64,000 nucleotides of DNA from Oligoflexia bacterium. Its GTDB lineage: Bacteria > Bdellovibrionota_G > JANQFH01. The DNA lies in assembly GCA_028277945.1 (NCBI GenBank), contig JANQFH010000021.1:186001-250000 (forward strand), written 5' to 3'. The first letter of the stretch is position 1, and every line of letters starts with the position of its first letter. This document shows, one piece after another, positions 25,753-36,140 of the stretch. The position numbers and the translations under genes were made by a program. Under the pieces are notes generated by a model, which worked only from the letters and a program-made list of their open reading frames with translations, did no database searches and was not told the origin of the DNA.

Positions 25753-27546
25753 ATGGCAGTCATGGGCTGGCAAAAAAAGTACCCGTTAATTTTACTGATT
25801 TCTCTATTTGGACCACTGCCTTTTGCGCTACAGAGCTATTCCCAAACCCATGGAGAGAAGGTCGAGATCCGTAATGTTTATGTTCGACCGACTGAGAGAT
25901 ATTCTGACGAAGGCTCAAAAGCTGCCACGTTCAAACATAAACAAGAGTTACCATCCTGCGCCTCTTTTAGTCCTTGTAGGGCTTTAGAAATTCAATTGCA
26001 AGGTGCTGGTGTAGAACGGCTCGCACCACTGGCGCTTTATATGTACGCACAGGCCTGGGACAACGATTTTTATGCAAGAGTACCAATTCTCGGTTACGTA
26101 GGTGGAAATCCTATCGATGACATTGTTTCTATTATTCAAGATTATGGAGTGCCGTTGTTACCTGATAAGTTTGACTTAAACAATATTACCCAAACATGCG
26201 TTCAACTCTTTGGCGATGGAAGTGAGCACGTGCAGTTTTATGCTTTTGACGACGTCGAATACTTCGATGACCCACAGCAGGCCACCCTCACCGACTATCT
26301 ACCAACAGTTTCTGATTTCTTACAAAGAGATGGTCCACAGTGGACGGCAATCGTTACTATAAATGACCATTTCAGATACAGTAGGGATCGCAATTGGCTA
26401 GTTTTGCCTGGTGACAAACGAATTCGAGTCAGCGAAACATCGATCGGTGGTTACCATGCGATTTCAATCTTTGCCTACAGCAAGAAGGACGAACAGGTTA
26501 CTTTCTATGTTTCTGACTCAAATTATGAGGACCCACTACTTCTAACAGCTGCCGAATACGATCAACTGGTTGATGATGTCATTCTCGTACGTGGCGCAGT
26601 TGAGCTTGTTGACCAGACATCAAGGGAACGATCATTAAAAGCTTATCAGGGAGCATATTTTTGCCATGACCCAAAAGAGTTCGAAATTTTTAGTGAAGAT
26701 GCTTTAGCTGAATTCGGATTAACTAGGCCCGACACGTATATGCCATTAAGGGATCGCCTACAAGTAATGACACCCAGAAGCCTTAGAAGCATGCTACAAC
26801 ATTATGACGGTAGCCTAGATCGCAATGCCATTGGGACAGATACAGAAATTGAAGCAAACTTTAAAGACCTGTGTCATTTTCCAGATGTTGATTCGCGAGA
26901 ATTTAGACGTTGGCGAGAGTCATTACCTGGAAAGATGTTCTTCGAGTTTTGCCTGCATCCAGAGGTGGTTACGAGCAATTTCCCGAGTATCGAAGAACAA
27001 GCTAGGTGGTATCTAGATGTTTTCAATCAATTGCCACTGGGCCTGTTAGTAGATCGATTGCGTACACATGATTTTTTTGGTGCAGTTACTGCTGTGACTA
27101 GATGTCGCAGAGAACACACGGCGTTTACAAACACTTCTGTTGTTGCTTGTCTTGACTCAGACCCTTTGCCTATAAGAGGAATCATCCAAGAAAGAGAATC
27201 TTTGTGGGACAAAGTTTCGTTTGTAGATGGTGTAATTGAATACGGGCTTCAACATCCTGACGCGATGGCTCGACTTTACGTATTGGTACCACGGCCGGAA
27301 CTTGATCGCATGATTGCACAAGTTTGCAAAAAGCGATTCGACTATGGCGATGACAGTATATACCTCTTTAGTTACAATATCGCTCGGATGATGGAATACT
27401 TCGCTTCGTCCCCAGTGAAGGTGAGTGATATCTTCGATCCAGATCATTTACGACGAGCTTTAGAGATATATAAGAAACATCGATCAGAATACCCTAAACC
27501 GGAATTAGAACGCAAAGTTTATACAGCGTTTGGTAGTGATACCTGA
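25753..27546 (+). CDS. Secreted protein with papain-like (C1A) signature
   Basis: 597 residues with a signal peptide (about 1-30, hydrophobic YPLILLISLFGPLPFAL). Not a clear family member, but residues about 70-280 follow the order of a papain-fold peptidase: Cys in ELPSCASFSPCRALE (compare CWAFS with a following Glu), then a GG-containing segment YVGGNPIDDIVSIIQDYGVP, then a His in GGYHAISIFAYSKK and an Asn in VSDSNYEDP. If right, the catalytic triad is present. The C-terminal 300 residues are helical and unknown. Start could also be ATG at 25762. Base composition is lower in G+C than neighbours. Function inferred only. Confidence 0.5.
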   Translation: MAVMGWQKKYPLILLISLFGPLPFALQSYSQTHGEKVEIRNVYVRPTERYSDEGSKAATFKHKQELPSCASFSPCRALEIQLQGAGVERLAPLALYMYAQAWDNDFYARVPILGYVGGNPIDDIVSIIQDYGVPLLPDKFDLNNITQTCVQLFGDGSEHVQFYAFDDVEYFDDPQQATLTDYLPTVSDFLQRDGPQWTAIVTINDHFRYSRDRNWLVLPGDKRIRVSETSIGGYHAISIFAYSKKDEQVTFYVSDSNYEDPLLLTAAEYDQLVDDVILVRGAVELVDQTSRERSLKAYQGAYFCHDPKEFEIFSEDALAEFGLTRPDTYMPLRDRLQVMTPRSLRSMLQHYDGSLDRNAIGTDTEIEANFKDLCHFPDVDSREFRRWRESLPGKMFFEFCLHPEVVTSNFPSIEEQARWYLDVFNQLPLGLLVDRLRTHDFFGAVTAVTRCRREHTAFTNTSVVACLDSDPLPIRGIIQERESLWDKVSFVDGVIEYGLQHPDAMARLYVLVPRPELDRMIAQVCKKRFDYGDDSIYLFSYNIARMMEYFASSPVKVSDIFDPDHLRRALEIYKKHRSEYPKPELERKVYTAFGSDT

Positions 27547-27695: not shown

Positions 27696-27738
27696 CTCCT
27701 CCGTTCTAGCATCTCTTCGAGATGCTAGAACGGAGGAG
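27696..27738. repeat. Perfect hairpin, unit 1 of twin element
   Basis: A 20-bp perfect stem (27696-27715 pairing with 27719-27738) and a TTC loop. The outer arms are CTCCTCCG/CGGAGGAG and the inner 12 bp differ completely from unit 2 while remaining fully paired. It is preceded by GTTATGATTATA (27681-27692) and runs into AACGGAGGAGGAGGGAT (27729-27745), identical over 17 bp to 36018-36034 at the tRNA-Ser 3' end. Confidence 0.85.
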
Positions 27739-27816: not shown

Positions 27817-27857
27817 TCCTCCGATATGGACATTCTACGAATGTCCATATCGGAGGA
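27817..27857. repeat. Perfect hairpin, unit 2 of twin element
   Basis: A 19-bp perfect stem (27817-27835 pairing with 27839-27857) and a TAC loop. The outer TCCTCCG/CGGAGGA is shared with unit 1; the inner 12 bp differ but still pair. Preceded by GTTACGATTATA (27803-27814). No T-run follows, so it is not an ordinary intrinsic terminator. Confidence 0.85.
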
Positions 27858-28034: not shown

Positions 28035-28389
28035 GAAACGGTCTCGGCCATTGCTTGTTCATCTTCTTCGTGAAGAACAAAAGCGCAATGCTTCCTTGTC
28101 GAAGCGTTACGAAAAAGCCTTGGGGCAACTGCCTAAAGGCAGACTATATGTGCGTAGGGTTGAGAAGGGAAGAAAGATCAAACGCTACGTCTATCTGAGT
28201 CGGCGTCTTCCTGGTCAAAGGCATCCTGAGTCCAAATACATCGGTTCTGCTGGCTCAGACGAAGTCCATAAGGTCAAGCTACAGCTCAAAGACCGAGAAC
28301 AGCTAGAAGCCCAATTAGCTCACCTGGCTATTGAGAAACAGATGATCGAAAAGGCTCTAGCCGAGTACCGCCGGTTAAGCTGCATTTAA
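28033..28389 (+). CDS. Small basic protein, DUF6788-like
   Basis: 118 residues, strongly basic, with a central beta-rich segment (KGRLYVRRVEKGRKIKRYVY followed by LSRR and HPESKYIGS) and a C-terminal coiled coil (about 75-115). This layout resembles DUF6788-type proteins, which are common on mobile elements and have no known function. Its last codons overlap the convergent AbiEii gene by 4 bp. The 5' end sits under an inverted repeat and has no ribosome site, so translation may be leaderless. Confidence 0.65.
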   Translation: MKRSRPLLVHLLREEQKRNASLSKRYEKALGQLPKGRLYVRRVEKGRKIKRYVYLSRRLPGQRHPESKYIGSAGSDEVHKVKLQLKDREQLEAQLAHLAIEKQMIEKALAEYRRLSCI

Positions 28390-29396
28390 AGGCTGTTAAA
28401 TTCCTTTTCAAATTGTTCGATGGTTCTAAGTATTAAATCCCAAGCGGGAGGCTCTTCAAACATCATCGGTTGCATGAGGTCGTAATCCTTTTTTAAAGCT
28501 GCGGCAACGCGGTCCGGGGGCATCAGTCTGAGGGTTCCTTTGCGGGCCGTATCATAGTTTGCCCATCCGGAAGCAAAGTAGACTTTCTTGTGGTTTGCAA
28601 CTCGGTCAAGAAGAGCCACTTCAGCAAGGGATTTCGATTTGATATTCGAGTTTAACAACTTGAAGAAATCGTACCAATGCCTGGAAAGTCGGGCTGGCAG
28701 CGCCTTCTCCTCTGGCAGGTGCGCATATTGATGAAGAATAGTTGCCTTTTCCCAAAAAGTCCGTTCTGCATTGAGAACACGAACGGTTACTTTGGGTTCT
28801 TGAATTTTGTCCTTAAGAGCTGTTTTAGCGTAACTTTCGATTAGATGATCGCTGACGGGCCAGTGCTCAGCTCGTGCTCCCATTTCAATCTTCACAATAG
28901 GGCGAATGTATTTGTCTTTTGAGGAAATGCTCGGATAGTGAAAAAGAAGCGTTTGGGAATCATCCGGATCACAAATGATTTCCCAGTTCTGATCCGTCCC
29001 AAGCTTGGCAGCGATGTGCCTTTTGAGATTATCAAGCATCTCCCCTTGGATGTATTTGGAACAGGCTTGAGAAAGTGTATCGAGAGCGGCTTTCTGTTTA
29101 CTGCGAGATGGTAACTTTTCCGGTGCCTGCTTTTCATCGAATCCCAAAAAACTTCTTTCGATGGAAACATCGATATCTTCTGAAAAGCGCTCTATTAAAC
29201 CAAATATTTTGGCAAGAGACGTACCTCCTTTGAAGGTTAAATGAGCTTGCAACTTGGGTAGGGTAAAAAGTCGTTCTAGCGTCCATACCACCCAATAATC
29301 CTTTTCAATAACTTCAAAGGATTTCTGGCTTTCGTAGGCAGCCACTTCAAAATGACTTTTTCTTTCATCTGACGAAACAAGGCAAAGTTCGTTCAT
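28386..29396 (-). CDS. AbiEii-type nucleotidyltransferase toxin
   Basis: 336 residues of the AbiEii/AbiGii family: toxins of type IV toxin-antitoxin systems with abortive phage infection activity. The nucleotidyltransferase motifs are visible in LTFKGGTSLAKIFGLIERFS and the following EDIDVSIE (GGTSL, then S-x-D-x-D). Later conserved parts include VRVLNAERTFWEKATILHQY and LSRHWYDFFKL. AbiEii-like enzymes have been shown to modify tRNA acceptor ends with nucleotides. The gene overlaps its antitoxin by 4 bp. Confidence 0.9.
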   Translation of the reverse strand: MNELCLVSSDERKSHFEVAAYESQKSFEVIEKDYWVVWTLERLFTLPKLQAHLTFKGGTSLAKIFGLIERFSEDIDVSIERSFLGFDEKQAPEKLPSRSKQKAALDTLSQACSKYIQGEMLDNLKRHIAAKLGTDQNWEIICDPDDSQTLLFHYPSISSKDKYIRPIVKIEMGARAEHWPVSDHLIESYAKTALKDKIQEPKVTVRVLNAERTFWEKATILHQYAHLPEEKALPARLSRHWYDFFKLLNSNIKSKSLAEVALLDRVANHKKVYFASGWANYDTARKGTLRLMPPDRVAAALKKDYDLMQPMMFEEPPAWDLILRTIEQFEKEFNSL

Positions 29397-30001
29397 TGCG
29401 CGCCCCCAACTACTTCTAAAATAAGGCTACGAATCCATTGCGGTGCGTATTTCAAATTTTTTTTGAGCTCCTTTTGGCTAATACCTGCCAATGCCATACG
29501 TATACGCGCCCGCATAGCGGTATCTATATTTTGTTTACCGATATTTTTAAGAGCTTGAATGACGAGACCGACCTTTCCGGTAGCGGCGTGCAATGTCTTT
29601 TCACTCGCAGTCCGAAAAATGATTTCAAACTTACCAATCTTGAGTTTTTTGCTGGGACCGTTGGTAAGAAAGATTACTTTGGCGGGAACCTGCTCAGTAA
29701 GCCCAACGAGATTGGCGGCATAGGCGCCTGAAGGTAGCACTTTGGTGCCATTTTTTTCGGCAACAGCTTTTACAACCTCATCAATTTGTGGCGGCAATAT
29801 GCCAAGCTCCTTATGCTCGCGTGGGTATTCATAGATCCCCTGGGCAAGGCGCCTAATCATTTTGTCCTTTTGAAGACGAGAGAGGGCACTACGAACGCCC
29901 GTATCGCTATCAAGGTCCAAAAAGTGTTTGGGCGTAAAACACCAGCCCCGACCATGGGCGACGATTCTTTTTTTAACGGCATCTACGACACTTTTTCGCA
30001 T
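29393..30001 (-). CDS. AbiEi-type antitoxin (DUF6088 group)
   Basis: 202 residues from the ATG at 30001 (a longer frame reaching 30187 has no family-like N-terminus and would run through the operator). The N-terminal winged-helix region (RGWCFTPKHFLDLDSDTGVR, then ALSRLQKDKMIRRLAQGIYE) binds DNA; the rest is the AbiEi antitoxin domain (VLPSGAYAANLVGLTEQVPA). It should neutralise the AbiEii toxin and repress the operon, in keeping with the two inverted repeats just upstream. Confidence 0.88.
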   Translation of the reverse strand: MRKSVVDAVKKRIVAHGRGWCFTPKHFLDLDSDTGVRSALSRLQKDKMIRRLAQGIYEYPREHKELGILPPQIDEVVKAVAEKNGTKVLPSGAYAANLVGLTEQVPAKVIFLTNGPSKKLKIGKFEIIFRTASEKTLHAATGKVGLVIQALKNIGKQNIDTAMRARIRMALAGISQKELKKNLKYAPQWIRSLILEVVGGAQ

Positions 30002-30015
30002 TATCAGAAACCCTC

Positions 30016-30047
30016 TTGCCACAAAATATACTACGATTTTGTGGCAA
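30016..30047. promoter_or_regulatory. AbiE operator 1 (inverted repeat)
   Basis: TTGCCACAAAAT (30016-30027) and ATTTTGTGGCAA (30036-30047) form a perfect 12-bp inverted repeat with an 8-bp spacer, 14 bp upstream of the antitoxin ATG. AbiEi-type antitoxins are known to bind such repeats for negative autoregulation. Confidence 0.75.
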
Positions 30048-30062
30048 AAAGCAATGACAATT

Positions 30063-30091
30063 TGCCACAAAAAATACAATAAATTGTGGCA
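30063..30091. promoter_or_regulatory. AbiE operator 2 (inverted repeat)
   Basis: TGCCACAA (30063-30070) and TTGTGGCA (30084-30091) repeat the core of operator 1 with a 13-bp spacer. The two operators lie in tandem upstream of the AbiE genes, so cooperative repression is likely. Confidence 0.7.
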
Positions 30092-30248
30092 GATAATCTG
30101 ATAAACCGCGTATTTACAAATAGTTATAAAAATTTTACTCAATTGGATAGGATTCGGGGTTTCTTTAACATCCAAAAACACGCCCATTTACAGCCATTTC
30201 GGCAAGTTTGCTCCGGAAGTTGGTCAAGGCGCTTGCTTTAAAAGTAAA

Positions 30249-30270
30249 ATAGCTGTATATATACAGCTAT
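30249..30270. promoter_or_regulatory. 22-bp perfect palindrome across XRE start codon
   Basis: ATAGCTGTATATATACAGCTAT is a perfect 22-bp palindrome whose last two bases are the first two of the ATG at 30269. TAAAAT at 30245-30250 could be a -10 element, giving a leader of only about a dozen bases and no ribosome site. It is most likely the operator of the XRE repressor encoded downstream, acting on its own, nearly leaderless, transcript. Confidence 0.7.
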
Positions 30271-31237
30271 GGCTAAGTTTTATCTCAATAAGGTTCTAGA
30301 ACAGAGAGGCGTCACACAATATAACCTATCGCAATTGCTTGGGGTTTCGACCGGAGTTGTCTCTAGGTGGTGTTCTGAGGGCTACAACCCAACCTTAAAA
30401 ACTCTCAATAAGCTGGCGAAAGCCTTAGGAGTTCGAATAGCGGATCTGATGGAGCCGGAAGTGACGGATTCTGAAAGAGTTCATCCCCTTAAGGTTCAGC
30501 AATCTGTACTAGAAGCCCATAGGAAGAAGGGGAAGAAGTTTATACCACCACTTATTGATAAGCTGGATTTAAGCTTCATTGGGTGGGTTCACAACATACT
30601 CCCTGAGTTGGTTTGGTTAGCAATAGTGGAAAAGCAACTAGGTTTCCATCGCAGCGCTGAGATAGCAGCAGAGTTCGCCAAGATAGGTCAAAGTTTTCCG
30701 TCAGATAGACGATGGATTGCATGCCTCTCAAGTTTCGCTCATCTTCAGGAGCAATCCAAGGAGGCATTGCTTCATGGCTTAACGGATGCTGGGGTTATTA
30801 GTGATCTTAGGTATGCCCTGGGTGATTTTTATTACTATTACCCGAAGTTGCCCCTCGATTTTCTATTGGGCGATGTTCCAAAAGAACAAGAGGAAAAGAA
30901 ATTTCTTGATCAATATAAGGGTTGGTTATCGGACCTCTTTGATAAAACGAGTATTACAGCAACTAGGATGTTGGCTAATGCGGTCTACATGGATTTTGTA
31001 TGCGGGCGCCTAAAAGTATTTAAAGGATTGTCGCTAGCCAGATTTCCGGAAATCCAAGACTACCCTAATACCGATATCGCTAAGCAAATCGCAAGTTCTC
31101 TTAGAGCAATGATTAACACTAGTGTAAGTCACGAACTCGGTAAATTAAAGGATACAATATGGAGTAGTTATTTCTGGCGTCGAGGTTTCGAAATAGAACC
31201 GGTTGATTTTTCCCACCTGAAAGGCGTTGACCAATGA
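30269..31237 (+). CDS. XRE-family regulator with unknown C-terminal domain
   Basis: 322 residues. Residues about 5-60 are a Cro/C1-type helix-turn-helix (QYNLSQLLGVSTGVVSRWCS and KTLNKLAKALGVRIADLMEP). The remaining 250 residues form an uncharacterised helical domain (LSFIGWVHNILPELVWLAIV at its start) that I do not recognise. It probably represses its own operon through the 22-bp palindrome and may sense a phage or stress signal through the large domain. It overlaps the DUF5677-like gene by 4 bp (ATGA). Confidence 0.75.
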   Translation: MAKFYLNKVLEQRGVTQYNLSQLLGVSTGVVSRWCSEGYNPTLKTLNKLAKALGVRIADLMEPEVTDSERVHPLKVQQSVLEAHRKKGKKFIPPLIDKLDLSFIGWVHNILPELVWLAIVEKQLGFHRSAEIAAEFAKIGQSFPSDRRWIACLSSFAHLQEQSKEALLHGLTDAGVISDLRYALGDFYYYYPKLPLDFLLGDVPKEQEEKKFLDQYKGWLSDLFDKTSITATRMLANAVYMDFVCGRLKVFKGLSLARFPEIQDYPNTDIAKQIASSLRAMINTSVSHELGKLKDTIWSSYFWRRGFEIEPVDFSHLKGVDQ

Positions 31238-32058
31238 CGAACAGTCAGGAACGGTTTTGGGACATTTTGGAAAATTACTCTGCTAGGGTTAAGGCAGAAG
31301 CAGCAACTCGTATTGAAAAATGGGGATTCGATATTGAAAATGAGCACCAATTTGTCGTGGTAGGGGGACTCTTGGCGAGACAGGCCACCTTAGCGTCAGA
31401 GATTTCAGCCGCACCCAGCATATGGAATGAACATATGGCGCCAATCTTTTTGAGAGTAATGGTGGATTTACATATTAATTTGGCCTGGATTCTCAAGGAT
31501 CCGGAAACAAGAGCGAAGTCTTATATCGAGTATGGATTGGGTCAAGCCAAACTAATGGTTGAGCACAGAAAAGTCGATATGGTATCAAAAGGATTGGATC
31601 CTCAAAATGATCAAGCGATACAGGCAACCGAGGCTTGGTTAAACAGTCAGCGACTAGAATTCCTTGTAGAAGTTAATGTAGGTAACTGGGCTGACTCTAC
31701 CATCCGTAATCTTGCAATCGAAGCCGACCAAAAATCGCTATACGACTTGTCTTATGTTCCCTTTAGCAATGCCGTTCACAATACCTGGTGGCATGTAGGA
31801 AGGTTTAATTCGCGGCGTAGTCCAAACCCATTGCATAGATTTCATTTTATACCCACAATGGATCATTGTGAACCCCACCCCCACTACCTTAAGGTGGCGG
31901 CTAAGTATGCCGACAAGTCCTTTCAACTGTTTGATGACAAAATTGGAATAGCTCATGAAGCGGAATCAGCGTTTCTATGGCTAGATGCTGCCATTGCAGA
32001 TTTGGAAGATGCCAATAATTCTGAAAACTCAGAGGAAAAAGCCAGTGGTCAAACGTGA
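31234..32058 (+). CDS. DUF5677-like protein
   Basis: 274 residues, mostly helical. The core HQFVVVGGLLARQATLASEI and APIFLRVMVDLHINLAWILK, then the RAKSYIEYGLGQAKLMVEHR segment, resemble DUF5677, a family of unknown function found often in mobile and defence-rich regions. No nucleic-acid or enzymatic motif can be named with certainty; conserved-looking His and Glu in HNTWWHVGRFN could be functional. Translationally coupled to the XRE gene and followed after 48 bp by a membrane protein gene. Confidence 0.65.
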   Translation: MTNSQERFWDILENYSARVKAEAATRIEKWGFDIENEHQFVVVGGLLARQATLASEISAAPSIWNEHMAPIFLRVMVDLHINLAWILKDPETRAKSYIEYGLGQAKLMVEHRKVDMVSKGLDPQNDQAIQATEAWLNSQRLEFLVEVNVGNWADSTIRNLAIEADQKSLYDLSYVPFSNAVHNTWWHVGRFNSRRSPNPLHRFHFIPTMDHCEPHPHYLKVAAKYADKSFQLFDDKIGIAHEAESAFLWLDAAIADLEDANNSENSEEKASGQT

Positions 32059-32106
32059 GAAAGCGGTATTAGTTTTCCTGTCTGTTCCTGGGATGGATTG
32101 GATTAA

Positions 32107-32553
32107 GTGAAGTCTGATATCGTACAAGTTTTATTTTCGTCTTTAACCCTGCTTGGTGTAGGCGGCATTATCGGCGGCTATGTTACATATTTTCTCAATA
32201 GAAAAAAGGAGCTTGAATTCAAACAGCTGGAGCAGAAAGAGAGGAGATATAGGTCTTGTTTGCTTTTTATGGATGTCTATTTTGAGCCTGAAAACATTAA
32301 ATATCTTTCAAGCCGTCACCCAGATATTCACAATGCTCAAGATGTCATAGGGTATCTCAAGGCTGAATATCACGAGATGTTACTGTATGCTTCGAAAGGT
32401 GTAATTTTAAATTTAAAAAAGTTCATAGAGGCACCAACAAGAGAACATTTTCTTAATGCCATTTTGAGTATGAGACATGATTTGTGGCTTAAGAAGTATG
32501 ATTTAGATTTAGAGCAAATTCGCATAGATTTCGATATTGCTCATCCAAGGTAA
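32107..32553 (+). CDS. Small single-pass membrane protein
   Basis: 148 residues starting with GTG at 32107. One N-terminal transmembrane segment (about residues 8-27, SSLTLLGVGGIIGGYVTYFL), then a charged coiled-coil-like stretch (NRKKELEFKQLEQKERRYRS) and a helical cytoplasmic domain. The arrangement is common for small membrane effectors in phage-defence systems, but there is no direct evidence of that here. It closes the XRE-DUF5677 unit. Confidence 0.6.
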   Translation: MKSDIVQVLFSSLTLLGVGGIIGGYVTYFLNRKKELEFKQLEQKERRYRSCLLFMDVYFEPENIKYLSSRHPDIHNAQDVIGYLKAEYHEMLLYASKGVILNLKKFIEAPTREHFLNAILSMRHDLWLKKYDLDLEQIRIDFDIAHPR

Positions 32554-32563
32554 GGTTCATAAA

Positions 32564-33640
32564 TCAACCATTTGATCTTAATGAGTTGAGGCCAGTTTCA
32601 AGAGATTTTCCAGCGTCGGAATTAGAAAGCATAAACAGCTCGTCAAGGCCAGACTTTGATTTTAAGCGGATTTCGCCATATCGCATGATTGGAATTTCAT
32701 AATTACCCTTGAACCTTTTATCTGGGCCGCCCTTTTTATTTACGTATTTCCATGTTGTGCCTACCTGTTTAGCATCGCGAGGAATAGAATCTTCCTCTAA
32801 AAAGTTAGATTCAGATAGTTCGATTTCTAGGTCGGAGTAGGTGACTGCGCCAAATTTGCCTTTTTGAAACACCAAGATTCGATCGGGGAAAAGGTACAAG
32901 GTTTCGTCTCCGGCAGGCAGAGTGGGCACATTTAAGTTGCACTTTACTCTCGCGGGGACCGAAAGAGAAGGCTTAATTAATTTTCTGTCAAAGGAAGTAG
33001 AGGCGCCACCACTTCGTTTTAAATCCTCGGTCGTACCGTAGGCATTAATATTCCAAACTCGCTCTGAATTAGCGAAGGTTTTAAAATCGTCTATTGTGCG
33101 AGTAAAGGCTTGACCGAGAAAGTCCTCAAGTTCGTATTGAAGGTAAAACTTGTTGAGACGCATATCGCGCCTCAACAATAGAAGCCAAATTACCAATACG
33201 GATATACTTCCAACGGCTAATAAATAGTTAGGAACCCCATTGAAAACCATGACTCCTATTCCGACAATCCCCAACATCAGAAATATGGTAGCCTTGTTCT
33301 TATACTTGATCACTGAGTTGAGCTCATTGAGAAAGTCCTTAGTTGATTCGCCAGCCATCTCGCTTACATCGGCACTTTGTATTTTTTGAAGATTGTTACC
33401 AACTTGTGGCTGGTCTGGGAGTCGCGGCTGTTGTGAATCGGTGTTAGGTGCCTGTTCCGGTGACTTGCCGTGTAGTTGCTTTCGATAGTAGACGCCACCG
33501 CGTCCAGCATGCACATATGCGCCCTTAGGGCCTAAGCCTACCCTTGCGCCCTTGACTCCAAATGAAGTGCCGATACCGGATTTGGAAACGTTAAATCTGA
33601 AAGGTCCAATTTTGATTCCTTTACGAATGTACATTCCCAT
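32564..33640 (-). CDS. DUF4236-domain membrane protein
   Basis: 358 residues. The N-terminal 55 residues are DUF4236 (IRKGIKIGPFRFNVSKSGIG followed by TSFGVKGARVGLGPKGAYVH), a short beta-rich module of unknown role. Two adjacent hydrophobic segments follow at about 118-155, then a soluble C-terminal domain of about 190 residues. Start may be ATG at 33640 or 33634. It faces the neighbouring membrane protein gene tail to tail with 10 bp between. Confidence 0.75.
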   Translation of the reverse strand: MGMYIRKGIKIGPFRFNVSKSGIGTSFGVKGARVGLGPKGAYVHAGRGGVYYRKQLHGKSPEQAPNTDSQQPRLPDQPQVGNNLQKIQSADVSEMAGESTKDFLNELNSVIKYKNKATIFLMLGIVGIGVMVFNGVPNYLLAVGSISVLVIWLLLLRRDMRLNKFYLQYELEDFLGQAFTRTIDDFKTFANSERVWNINAYGTTEDLKRSGGASTSFDRKLIKPSLSVPARVKCNLNVPTLPAGDETLYLFPDRILVFQKGKFGAVTYSDLEIELSESNFLEEDSIPRDAKQVGTTWKYVNKKGGPDKRFKGNYEIPIMRYGEIRLKSKSGLDELFMLSNSDAGKSLETGLNSLRSNG

Positions 33641-34477: not shown

Positions 34478-34678
34478 ATGGGAGCACAGCTCAAGATTTG
34501 CTTCGCGCAATCCACTCCCAGTGATAGAGATTTAACAGGCAGGCAAGACGGCACCAATGCGTTTTGCTTCTGCAAGGTCTTTGACAACCGAATAGAGGTT
34601 TTTAACGGTCAGGAAATTGGCGGTTTGTCCTCTGGTAAGCGTTTGTTGGTTGGCAGAAAGGCAGGCGATTTGCCATGA
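34478..34678 (+). CDS. Small ORF preceding the integrase
   Basis: 66 residues, ending in an ATGA overlap with the integrase gene, which is the main reason to accept it. AGGTGCAAC before the ATG gives a weak ribosome site. The protein has two beta-like segments (LKICFAQST and RIEVFNGQEIGG) and no recognisable family. The position is one where excisionases or small regulatory partners of integrases are often found; this protein shows no obvious helix-turn-helix. Confidence 0.45.
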   Translation: MGAQLKICFAQSTPSDRDLTGRQDGTNAFCFCKVFDNRIEVFNGQEIGGLSSGKRLLVGRKAGDLP

Positions 34679-35991
34679 CAACCAAACCAAAAAGATTGCG
34701 CCAGGAGGTAGCCGTCAGAGGTTACCCAGGCATCTTCAAAACCCTATACTGGAGTGAAACGAAGGGTCGCTATGTAGATCCAAGATCGATTCGGGGCTGT
34801 AGGGCCAAACCCTTTCGAGTGGTTAAGCGCGTGAAGGTGCTTGGCCGCTGGAAAAAGGTGCAGGCGATGTTTGATACCATTGATGCGGCTCGCGCGTGGC
34901 GAGACAAGACCACGAAGACGCCGCAAGCGAGAGTAACGCACACCTATACACTCGGCGATCTCATCGAAGAGTGGCAGCGCTGGTCCATTGGTCGGTATCG
35001 TGAGAGCACACGCGAGCAGTACGCCAAGGAGGTCAAACACATGGCCTTGTTGATGCGAGTTCCGGTGGAAGCGCTTACCGCTTACGATATTGACTGCTGG
35101 TTGCAGCAGTTGATCGATCCTGGTTATCCGAAGCCAAAGAGTCGGACCTCGTTTCGGCGCGAGGTGACCAGCCTTAAAACCATTCTCAACTGGTATCGTG
35201 AGCGCAAAAACTCTCGTTTTCAACCACCGATTCTCAAACGTCACAAACAAGATGCGGTGTTTACGAGAAGAGCGCAGGCGAGGAAACTCCCCTTAACTGA
35301 GGAGCAGCTTGAAGATGTACTTGATTGGTTGAAAGTTCACTCGAAAAAGCCGGTCTACTACTATCTGGCAGCGCTGCAGGCGCTCTCCGGCCCACGCATT
35401 GGTGAAGCGTGTGGTTTGATGTGGAAGGATATGGACTGGCAAAATCAGCGTTACACGATTCAGCGGATTGTCTGGTGGTCGACCAAGACCTCCAAGCCAA
35501 AACTTCGAGAGGGAACCAAGACCGATGAGATCCGTGTGGTGAAGATCTGTCCGCGGTTGCTGGAGTTACTTAACGAGTGGCAAGAGCACGGCAAGCGTTG
35601 TGAGTTTGTCTTTCACAGCGACGGTAAACTGCTCACGCGTACCGCCATTCAAAATGCCTACAACCAGGCGTTTGAACGTTTGGGTTTACCTCAGCGAGCA
35701 ACGCATGTGTTTCGTCACACCTTTGCGACGATCCATGCCGATCAAACGAAAGACATACGTGCAACCCAAGGGGCCCTCGGGCACAAGGATCTTAGAACCA
35801 CACAACACTACGCTAGTGTGTCGGAGCGAACGCAAGCGCAAGCGTTGGGGGATTTTCGTTTGGGCCAAAGTCGAAAGCAGCAGCCAACACCGCCAGGTGG
35901 AAATGTCATTCCACTGAAGCCAAGGGAGGCAAGAGACAAGGAGCTGTCCCGCATTGTCCCGCAGAATTTGGGGCCGAAGGAGAGCTCTTAG
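34675..35991 (+). CDS. Tyrosine site-specific integrase
   Basis: 438 residues. An N-terminal arm-type region, then a core-binding SAM-like domain (about 90-170, TYTLGDLIEEWQRWSIGRYR), then the catalytic domain with Arg in SGPRIGEACGL, the H-x-x-R in THVFRHTFATIH, the second His in ALGHKDLRTTQHYA and the nucleophile Tyr in QHYASVS. It catalyses integration and excision of the island. The gene ends 28 bp from the 3' end of tRNA-Ser, the likely target. Confidence 0.93.
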   Translation: MTTKPKRLRQEVAVRGYPGIFKTLYWSETKGRYVDPRSIRGCRAKPFRVVKRVKVLGRWKKVQAMFDTIDAARAWRDKTTKTPQARVTHTYTLGDLIEEWQRWSIGRYRESTREQYAKEVKHMALLMRVPVEALTAYDIDCWLQQLIDPGYPKPKSRTSFRREVTSLKTILNWYRERKNSRFQPPILKRHKQDAVFTRRAQARKLPLTEEQLEDVLDWLKVHSKKPVYYYLAALQALSGPRIGEACGLMWKDMDWQNQRYTIQRIVWWSTKTSKPKLREGTKTDEIRVVKICPRLLELLNEWQEHGKRCEFVFHSDGKLLTRTAIQNAYNQAFERLGLPQRATHVFRHTFATIHADQTKDIRATQGALGHKDLRTTQHYASVSERTQAQALGDFRLGQSRKQQPTPPGGNVIPLKPREARDKELSRIVPQNLGPKESS

Positions 35992-36019
35992 TGATTCAGA
36001 GTGGTTACGAAGAAAAAAA

Positions 36020-36107
36020 CGGAGGAGGAGGGATTCGAACCCCCGGAGCGCTCATCACGCTCAACGGTTTTCAAGACCGCCGCCTTCAACCACTCGGCCA
36101 CTCCTCC
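36020..36107 (-). tRNA. tRNA-Ser (anticodon TGA)
   Basis: 88 nt on the minus strand. Acceptor GGAGGAG pairs with CTCCTCC and the discriminator is G; the anticodon arm is CGGT-CTTGAAA-ACCG with anticodon TGA; a long variable arm of class II type follows (GAGCGTGATGAGCGCTC); the T arm is GGGGGTTCGAATCCC (with a slightly altered pairing). CCA is not encoded. Its 3' 17 bp (36020-36036) are the att core of the island. Confidence 0.95.
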
Positions 36108-36140
36108 ATGAATCAGACAGGCTATACCACAAGATCAGAG

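Follow-up and report, generated by a model that had tools for sequence, protein, structure and literature searches.

A probable autoregulated, anti-phage DitA-type module, split into two genes, fused to an XRE HTH and without DitB, in a tRNA-Ser island of an Oligoflexia bacterium

Gene content and island setting

The 64,000-nucleotide stretch of Oligoflexia bacterium DNA analyzed here (hereafter, the window) contains, at positions 30249-32553, three genes on the plus strand, the arrangement described in an earlier note that was based on the sequence alone. The first gene (30269-31237) encodes a 322-aa protein, XRE-DitN, in which an HTH (residues 6-63) is fused to the N-terminal half of DitA (residues 75-309), the large subunit of the Aditi system. 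The second (31234-32058), which overlaps the first by an ATGA sequence, encodes a 274-aa DUF5677 protein that corresponds to the C-terminal half of DitA. The third (32107-32553), starting with GTG, encodes a 148-aa orphan protein that has a single hydrophobic segment near its N-terminus; its membership in the unit is doubtful.

The three genes are located between an AbiE pair and an integrase gene beside tRNA-Ser, in an island that extends from about 27.7 to 36.0 kb of the window; both the AbiE adjacency and the tRNA-Ser island, which had been noticed previously, were recovered. The AbiE pair (28386-30001, minus strand), divergent from the three genes and outside the unit, consists of AbiEii (28386-29396) and AbiEi/DUF6088 (29393-30001), detected by PADLOC with E-values of 2e-102 and 9e-64, respectively. 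The gene for the tyrosine integrase of the island (34675-35991, plus strand; Phage_integrase, 1.8e-25) abuts the 3' end of tRNA-Ser (36019-36108, minus strand), which forms the right end of the island. The G+C content is 42% in the unit vs 52% in the flank, that is, the unit is richer in A+T. Up to 17 nt of the tRNA-Ser 3' end are repeated at 27729 and 27851, and these copies are candidate attachment repeats. In the same region, two perfect hairpins (27696-27738 and 27817-27857, with arms of 20 and 19 bp and a 3-nt loop) each run into GGAGGAGGAGGGAT, which matches the tRNA-Ser 3' end at 36018-36034; these could be relics of attachment sites or copies of a repeated element. Direct and inverted repeats of TTGCCACAAAA lie at 30016-30077, upstream of the AbiEi gene (30001, minus strand), and probably represent its operator. 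Adjoining the unit on the opposite strand (32564-33640) is a gene for a DUF4236 protein with strong hydrophobic segments that resembles the phage family phrog_17982 (4e-51), and just beyond the left end of the island (25753-27546), a 597-aa protein with a probable signal sequence at its start and without a significant family match is encoded.

Two halves of DitA and their relatives

The HTH of XRE-DitN scored above the curated cut-offs for HTH_26 (1.3e-12, 48.2 bits against a cut-off of 22) and HTH_3 (2e-11, 44.1 bits against 23), and is similar to DicA/HipB-type regulators. Thus, the XRE portion of the earlier description stands, whereas the remaining 250 residues, described there as an unknown domain, are the N-terminal half of DitA: residues 78-305 match DitA positions 3-227 in PADLOC (E = 9e-9), and profile-profile comparison with this half yielded a probability of 98.7 and an E-value of 1.8e-16 over 226 columns. 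The second protein contains DUF5677 (PF18928; E = 2e-24, 86.9 bits against a curated cut-off of 27.1) and matches DitA positions 300-478 (PADLOC, E = 2e-12), with a profile-profile probability of 99.2 and an E-value of 1.1e-19 over 196 columns. The DitA profile employed in the profile-profile comparisons was derived from three proteins, namely, two genuine Aditi DitA proteins and a lone DitA from genome G088. In view of the PADLOC and profile-profile matches, the assessment that no known system comes to mind holds only in part, because this unit carries both halves of DitA in order.

Aditi, which consists of DitA and DitB (PADLOC PDLC03826 and PDLC03827), was reportedly validated against phages by Millman and colleagues in 2022. 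In the genuine Aditi loci, on plasmids of Streptococcus salivarius and Clostridioides difficile, a single 488-490-aa DitA overlaps a 354-356-aa DitB, whereas in the window, DitA is encoded in two genes, its front half carries an HTH, and DitB was not detected. The DitB model performs well, producing matches of 4e-119 and 3e-120 beside DitA on the two plasmids, but detected no DitB among the island proteins or in the entire genome that includes the window (a draft, 95.6% complete), nor in ten other genomes or plasmids with DitA-like relatives. Given that none of these ten members of the wider branch has a DitB match, the absence of DitB is the rule outside the Bacillota loci rather than the result of a recent loss in this genome.

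The halves of DitA form one chain in eight other genomes or plasmids and are split at the same point as in the window in two more; in all readable relatives, the C-terminal domain of the XRE protein is conserved together with DUF5677, the co-conservation on which the earlier note had made its proposal depend. The single-chain relatives can be aligned from one end to the other with XRE-DitN followed by the DUF5677 protein. For example, the 521-aa chain from the Rhizobium indicum plasmid pPR12A201 aligns first with residues 76-269 of the XRE protein, at 26%, and next with the DUF5677 protein, at 40%; it matches DitA over 9-498 (7e-22). Single chains are also present in R. multihospitium, Mesorhizobium, Rhodococcus, and genomes G088 and G1104. 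The lone DitA-like proteins of Rhizobium, Mesorhizobium and Rhodococcus (loci L005, L009, L010 and L006), of which the rhizobial ones belong to the same sub-branch as the window, resemble the unit in possessing both domains without DitB but differ from it in being single-chain and lacking the HTH. The G088 protein (L013 / L015), a lone DitA in one chain that covers almost the full profile (E = 1e-57), is encoded between purD and a tadA-like gene; this genome yielded no DitB match.

Of the two other split pairs, that of genome G1406 (L030), which was drawn from the order of R. multihospitium, includes the nearest relative of the N domain in the window, aligning to the whole of it (34%, E = 8e-47), whereas its DUF5677 portion shows 41%; in the pair of G403 (L020), an IS3-type insertion (6061-7298 of L020) disrupts the DitA-N gene but leaves the DUF5677 gene whole (45% over 201 residues). 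Both pairs share the fission point and overlapping reading frames with the window but lack the HTH, and their third genes are different, DUF2971 downstream in L030 and DUF3800 upstream in L020. A further locus, L032, is broken at another place and was excluded from the same-split count. A sequencing or assembly error was rejected as the cause of the split, given that this boundary recurs in two other genomes, with overlaps that differ. In the phylogenetic tree, the three split forms are compatible with one group, albeit weakly supported (47/11), and the split may have a single origin.

In four genome samples, all of which include the seed genome, the numbers of genomes with DitA-type matches were 2 of 385, 2 of 399, 1 of 368 and 5 of 398, the fifth match in the last sample being weak. 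Single-sequence scans with the DUF5677 protein detected no relatives in viral or genome contigs, unlike alignment queries, which yielded three genome loci; phage records and viral contigs gave no match. The HTH is found only in the window among the 12 loci with a readable N-terminus (window included); the scans, pattern-based and limited, covered a genome collection with only five members of the phylum of the window, and HTH fusions may exist elsewhere. None of the relatives found carries an HTH, so that the view of this part of the unit as a conserved component is not supported.

The DUF5677 half has 12 invariant residues (R74, G101, G103, K106, L107, R158, Y170, S178, H182, W185, H201 and H204), identical in all of the 13 compared sequences, which span the range from the branch of the window to the two genuine Aditi DitA proteins, and the window protein retains all 12. 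Such conservation fits a conserved, possibly enzymatic core. The HEPN ribonuclease was considered as a candidate and rejected because no HEPN family was detected at E-values up to 1, and the R-x4-6-H spacing is missing among the invariant residues. AlphaFold modelled the XRE protein poorly (pLDDT 44.6), below what can be used for a structure search; the model of the DUF5677 protein (pLDDT 67.4) matched no solved fold (the best Foldseek hit, with E = 0.66, was judged meaningless), and no match to solved structures was found by sequence. Given these models, no enzymatic activity can be named. A study of Salmonella severity is said to mention DUF5677.

The start-codon palindrome and the third gene

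The start codon of the XRE-DitN gene lies in a perfect 22-bp palindrome, ATAGCTGTATATATACAGCTAT (30249-30270), which covers the start of the ATG at 30269, exactly as noticed previously, and no Shine-Dalgarno sequence precedes this first ATG; an earlier start is excluded by the in-frame TAA at 30245. This is the longest palindrome of the window and, as established by a whole-genome search, is present in a single copy in the genome. A length of 22 bp was reached in only one of 60 simulated windows with the same dinucleotide make-up, so that a palindrome coinciding precisely with the start of an HTH gene is unlikely to have arisen by chance. Perfect, single-copy and beyond chance expectation, the palindrome is likely to be a self-operator, in agreement with the self-repressed switch that had been proposed, and we infer that the XRE protein binds to it. 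A scan also called the palindrome a minus-strand terminator; this was rejected, given that no gene on that side reads into it. By eye, a possible, weak promoter, TTGCTT-N17-TATATA (30233-30261, plus strand), can be discerned, with the start point near the ATG, which would suggest a near-leaderless XRE transcript. A promoter scan listed TGGTCA-N18-TAAAAT at 30221-30250 instead; promoter-like sites were fewer than in shuffled sequences, and no site was above chance.

The 148-aa product of the third gene is, as described previously, a single-pass membrane protein, with one hydrophobic stretch that starts at residue 5 (best 19-residue Kyte-Doolittle mean, 1.93). No significant family was identified for it in Pfam, NCBIfam or PHROGs, and no relatives in plasmids, phages or viral contigs; there is no counterpart at the other DitA loci. 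The proposal of a three-part, sensor-effector-membrane system is thus not borne out with respect to the membrane component, which has no relative beside other DitA genes and none was found elsewhere. The companions of DitA differ by locus, and include DUF3800 (PDC-M04A), DUF2971 (PDC-S31), a 216-aa membrane protein and a SEC-C protein. The 216-aa protein (L010, 5571-6221) contains a hydrophobic segment and matches no family; its gene overlaps the beginning of the DitA-like gene in Mesorhizobium. The conserved unit, then, is the DitA pair, and the third gene is accessory at best.

A probable DitA-type protein in two chains and the alternatives

We consider it fairly probable that the first two genes encode a DitA-type defence protein in two chains, in which the XRE HTH is attached to the front half, expression is autorepressed via the palindrome, and the DUF5677 half is the effector. 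The data support a defence-type unit; neighbours of defence type are AbiE in the window, and PDC-M04A/DUF3800, a PifA-like NTPase and PDC-S31/DUF2971 at the loci of the relatives. Aditi is listed without a known mechanism (PMC12926258), and our literature search on DitA/DitB found no mechanism paper. Because single-chain forms of the two halves exist elsewhere, it is very probable that the two proteins of the window associate in a complex. Most likely, the two chains would reassemble into a DitA-like complex, and the HTH would bind the 22-bp palindrome over the promoter and the start codon, keeping the expression of the operon low. An infection cue would either free the complex from the DNA or act on its DitA-N part, after which the DUF5677 half would function as the effector, via the G-x-G-x-x-K-L / R / S-x3-H-x2-W / H-x2-H residues.

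Alternatively, the two genes might represent a toxin-antitoxin-like pair, in which XRE-DitN, an antitoxin and autorepressor, would neutralize a toxic DUF5677 protein by contact, so that the pair maintains the island and perhaps causes abortive infection. The layout, with an HTH encoded by the first gene, an overlap with the second and an operator over the start codon, is the customary one for such pairs and is compatible with type II; the HTH is similar to DicA/HipB-type regulators, the neighbouring AbiE is itself a type IV toxin-antitoxin system, and the invariant His and Arg residues are compatible with an enzyme. In most relatives, however, the halves are one protein, which makes the first half a constitutive partner rather than a separable, labile antitoxin, and no HTH is present in the split pairs of L020 and L030, so that we regard this possibility as unlikely.

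More improbable, in our assessment, is that the unit is an ordinary Aditi system that has lost DitB, or in which the role of DitB is filled by the 148-aa membrane protein. The homology to DitA does extend across both halves, and the third gene comes next in the same direction, like DitB in the genuine Aditi loci. Yet, DitB is without a match in the ten other genomes and plasmids of the wider branch as well, and the third gene, where there is one, is never the same (DUF3800, DUF2971, a different membrane protein). The 148-aa protein itself was rejected as a DitB candidate, being less than half the length of DitB and showing no match to it by HMM or BLAST. Slightly less credible still is a non-defence transcription regulator of island genes, with DUF5677 as co-regulator: the HTH and the palindrome would suit such a role, but the HTH is the non-conserved part of the unit, the conserved part comes from a defence family, and a palindrome present once in the genome leaves no further targets of that sequence.

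Thus, judging from sequence comparisons, the two genes most plausibly form a split, HTH-tethered DitA module without DitB that is probably autoregulated and anti-phage. Lacking DitB, the unit falls outside Aditi proper, and the claim that it would work like a DitA protein stands. Regulators of defence loci are known, such as RptR, which represses a defence island and binds palindromic DNA (PMC12255303), and BrxR, which is tied to defence operons (PMC9122601), but these stand alone, whereas the HTH in the window belongs to the same chain as one of the system's own components. We tentatively entertain a more specific possibility, that the front half of DitA serves as its own operator-bound repressor, with HTH-DitN sitting on the promoter and the DUF5677 effector bound to HTH-DitN, such that the trigger of defence would also induce the operon. 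If so, sensor, repressor and partner would be united in one component, a regulated form of a family that is otherwise HTH-free in this set.

The split at one place common to three genomes marks a domain boundary of DitA, and the residues invariant in all 13 sequences point to its likely active or structural core. The existence of relatives that lack DitB suggests that genomes can carry a DitA-type protein without this partner. Finally, the fusion to an HTH, together with the candidate operator over the start codon of the fusion gene, would join sensing to the control of expression in one chain.
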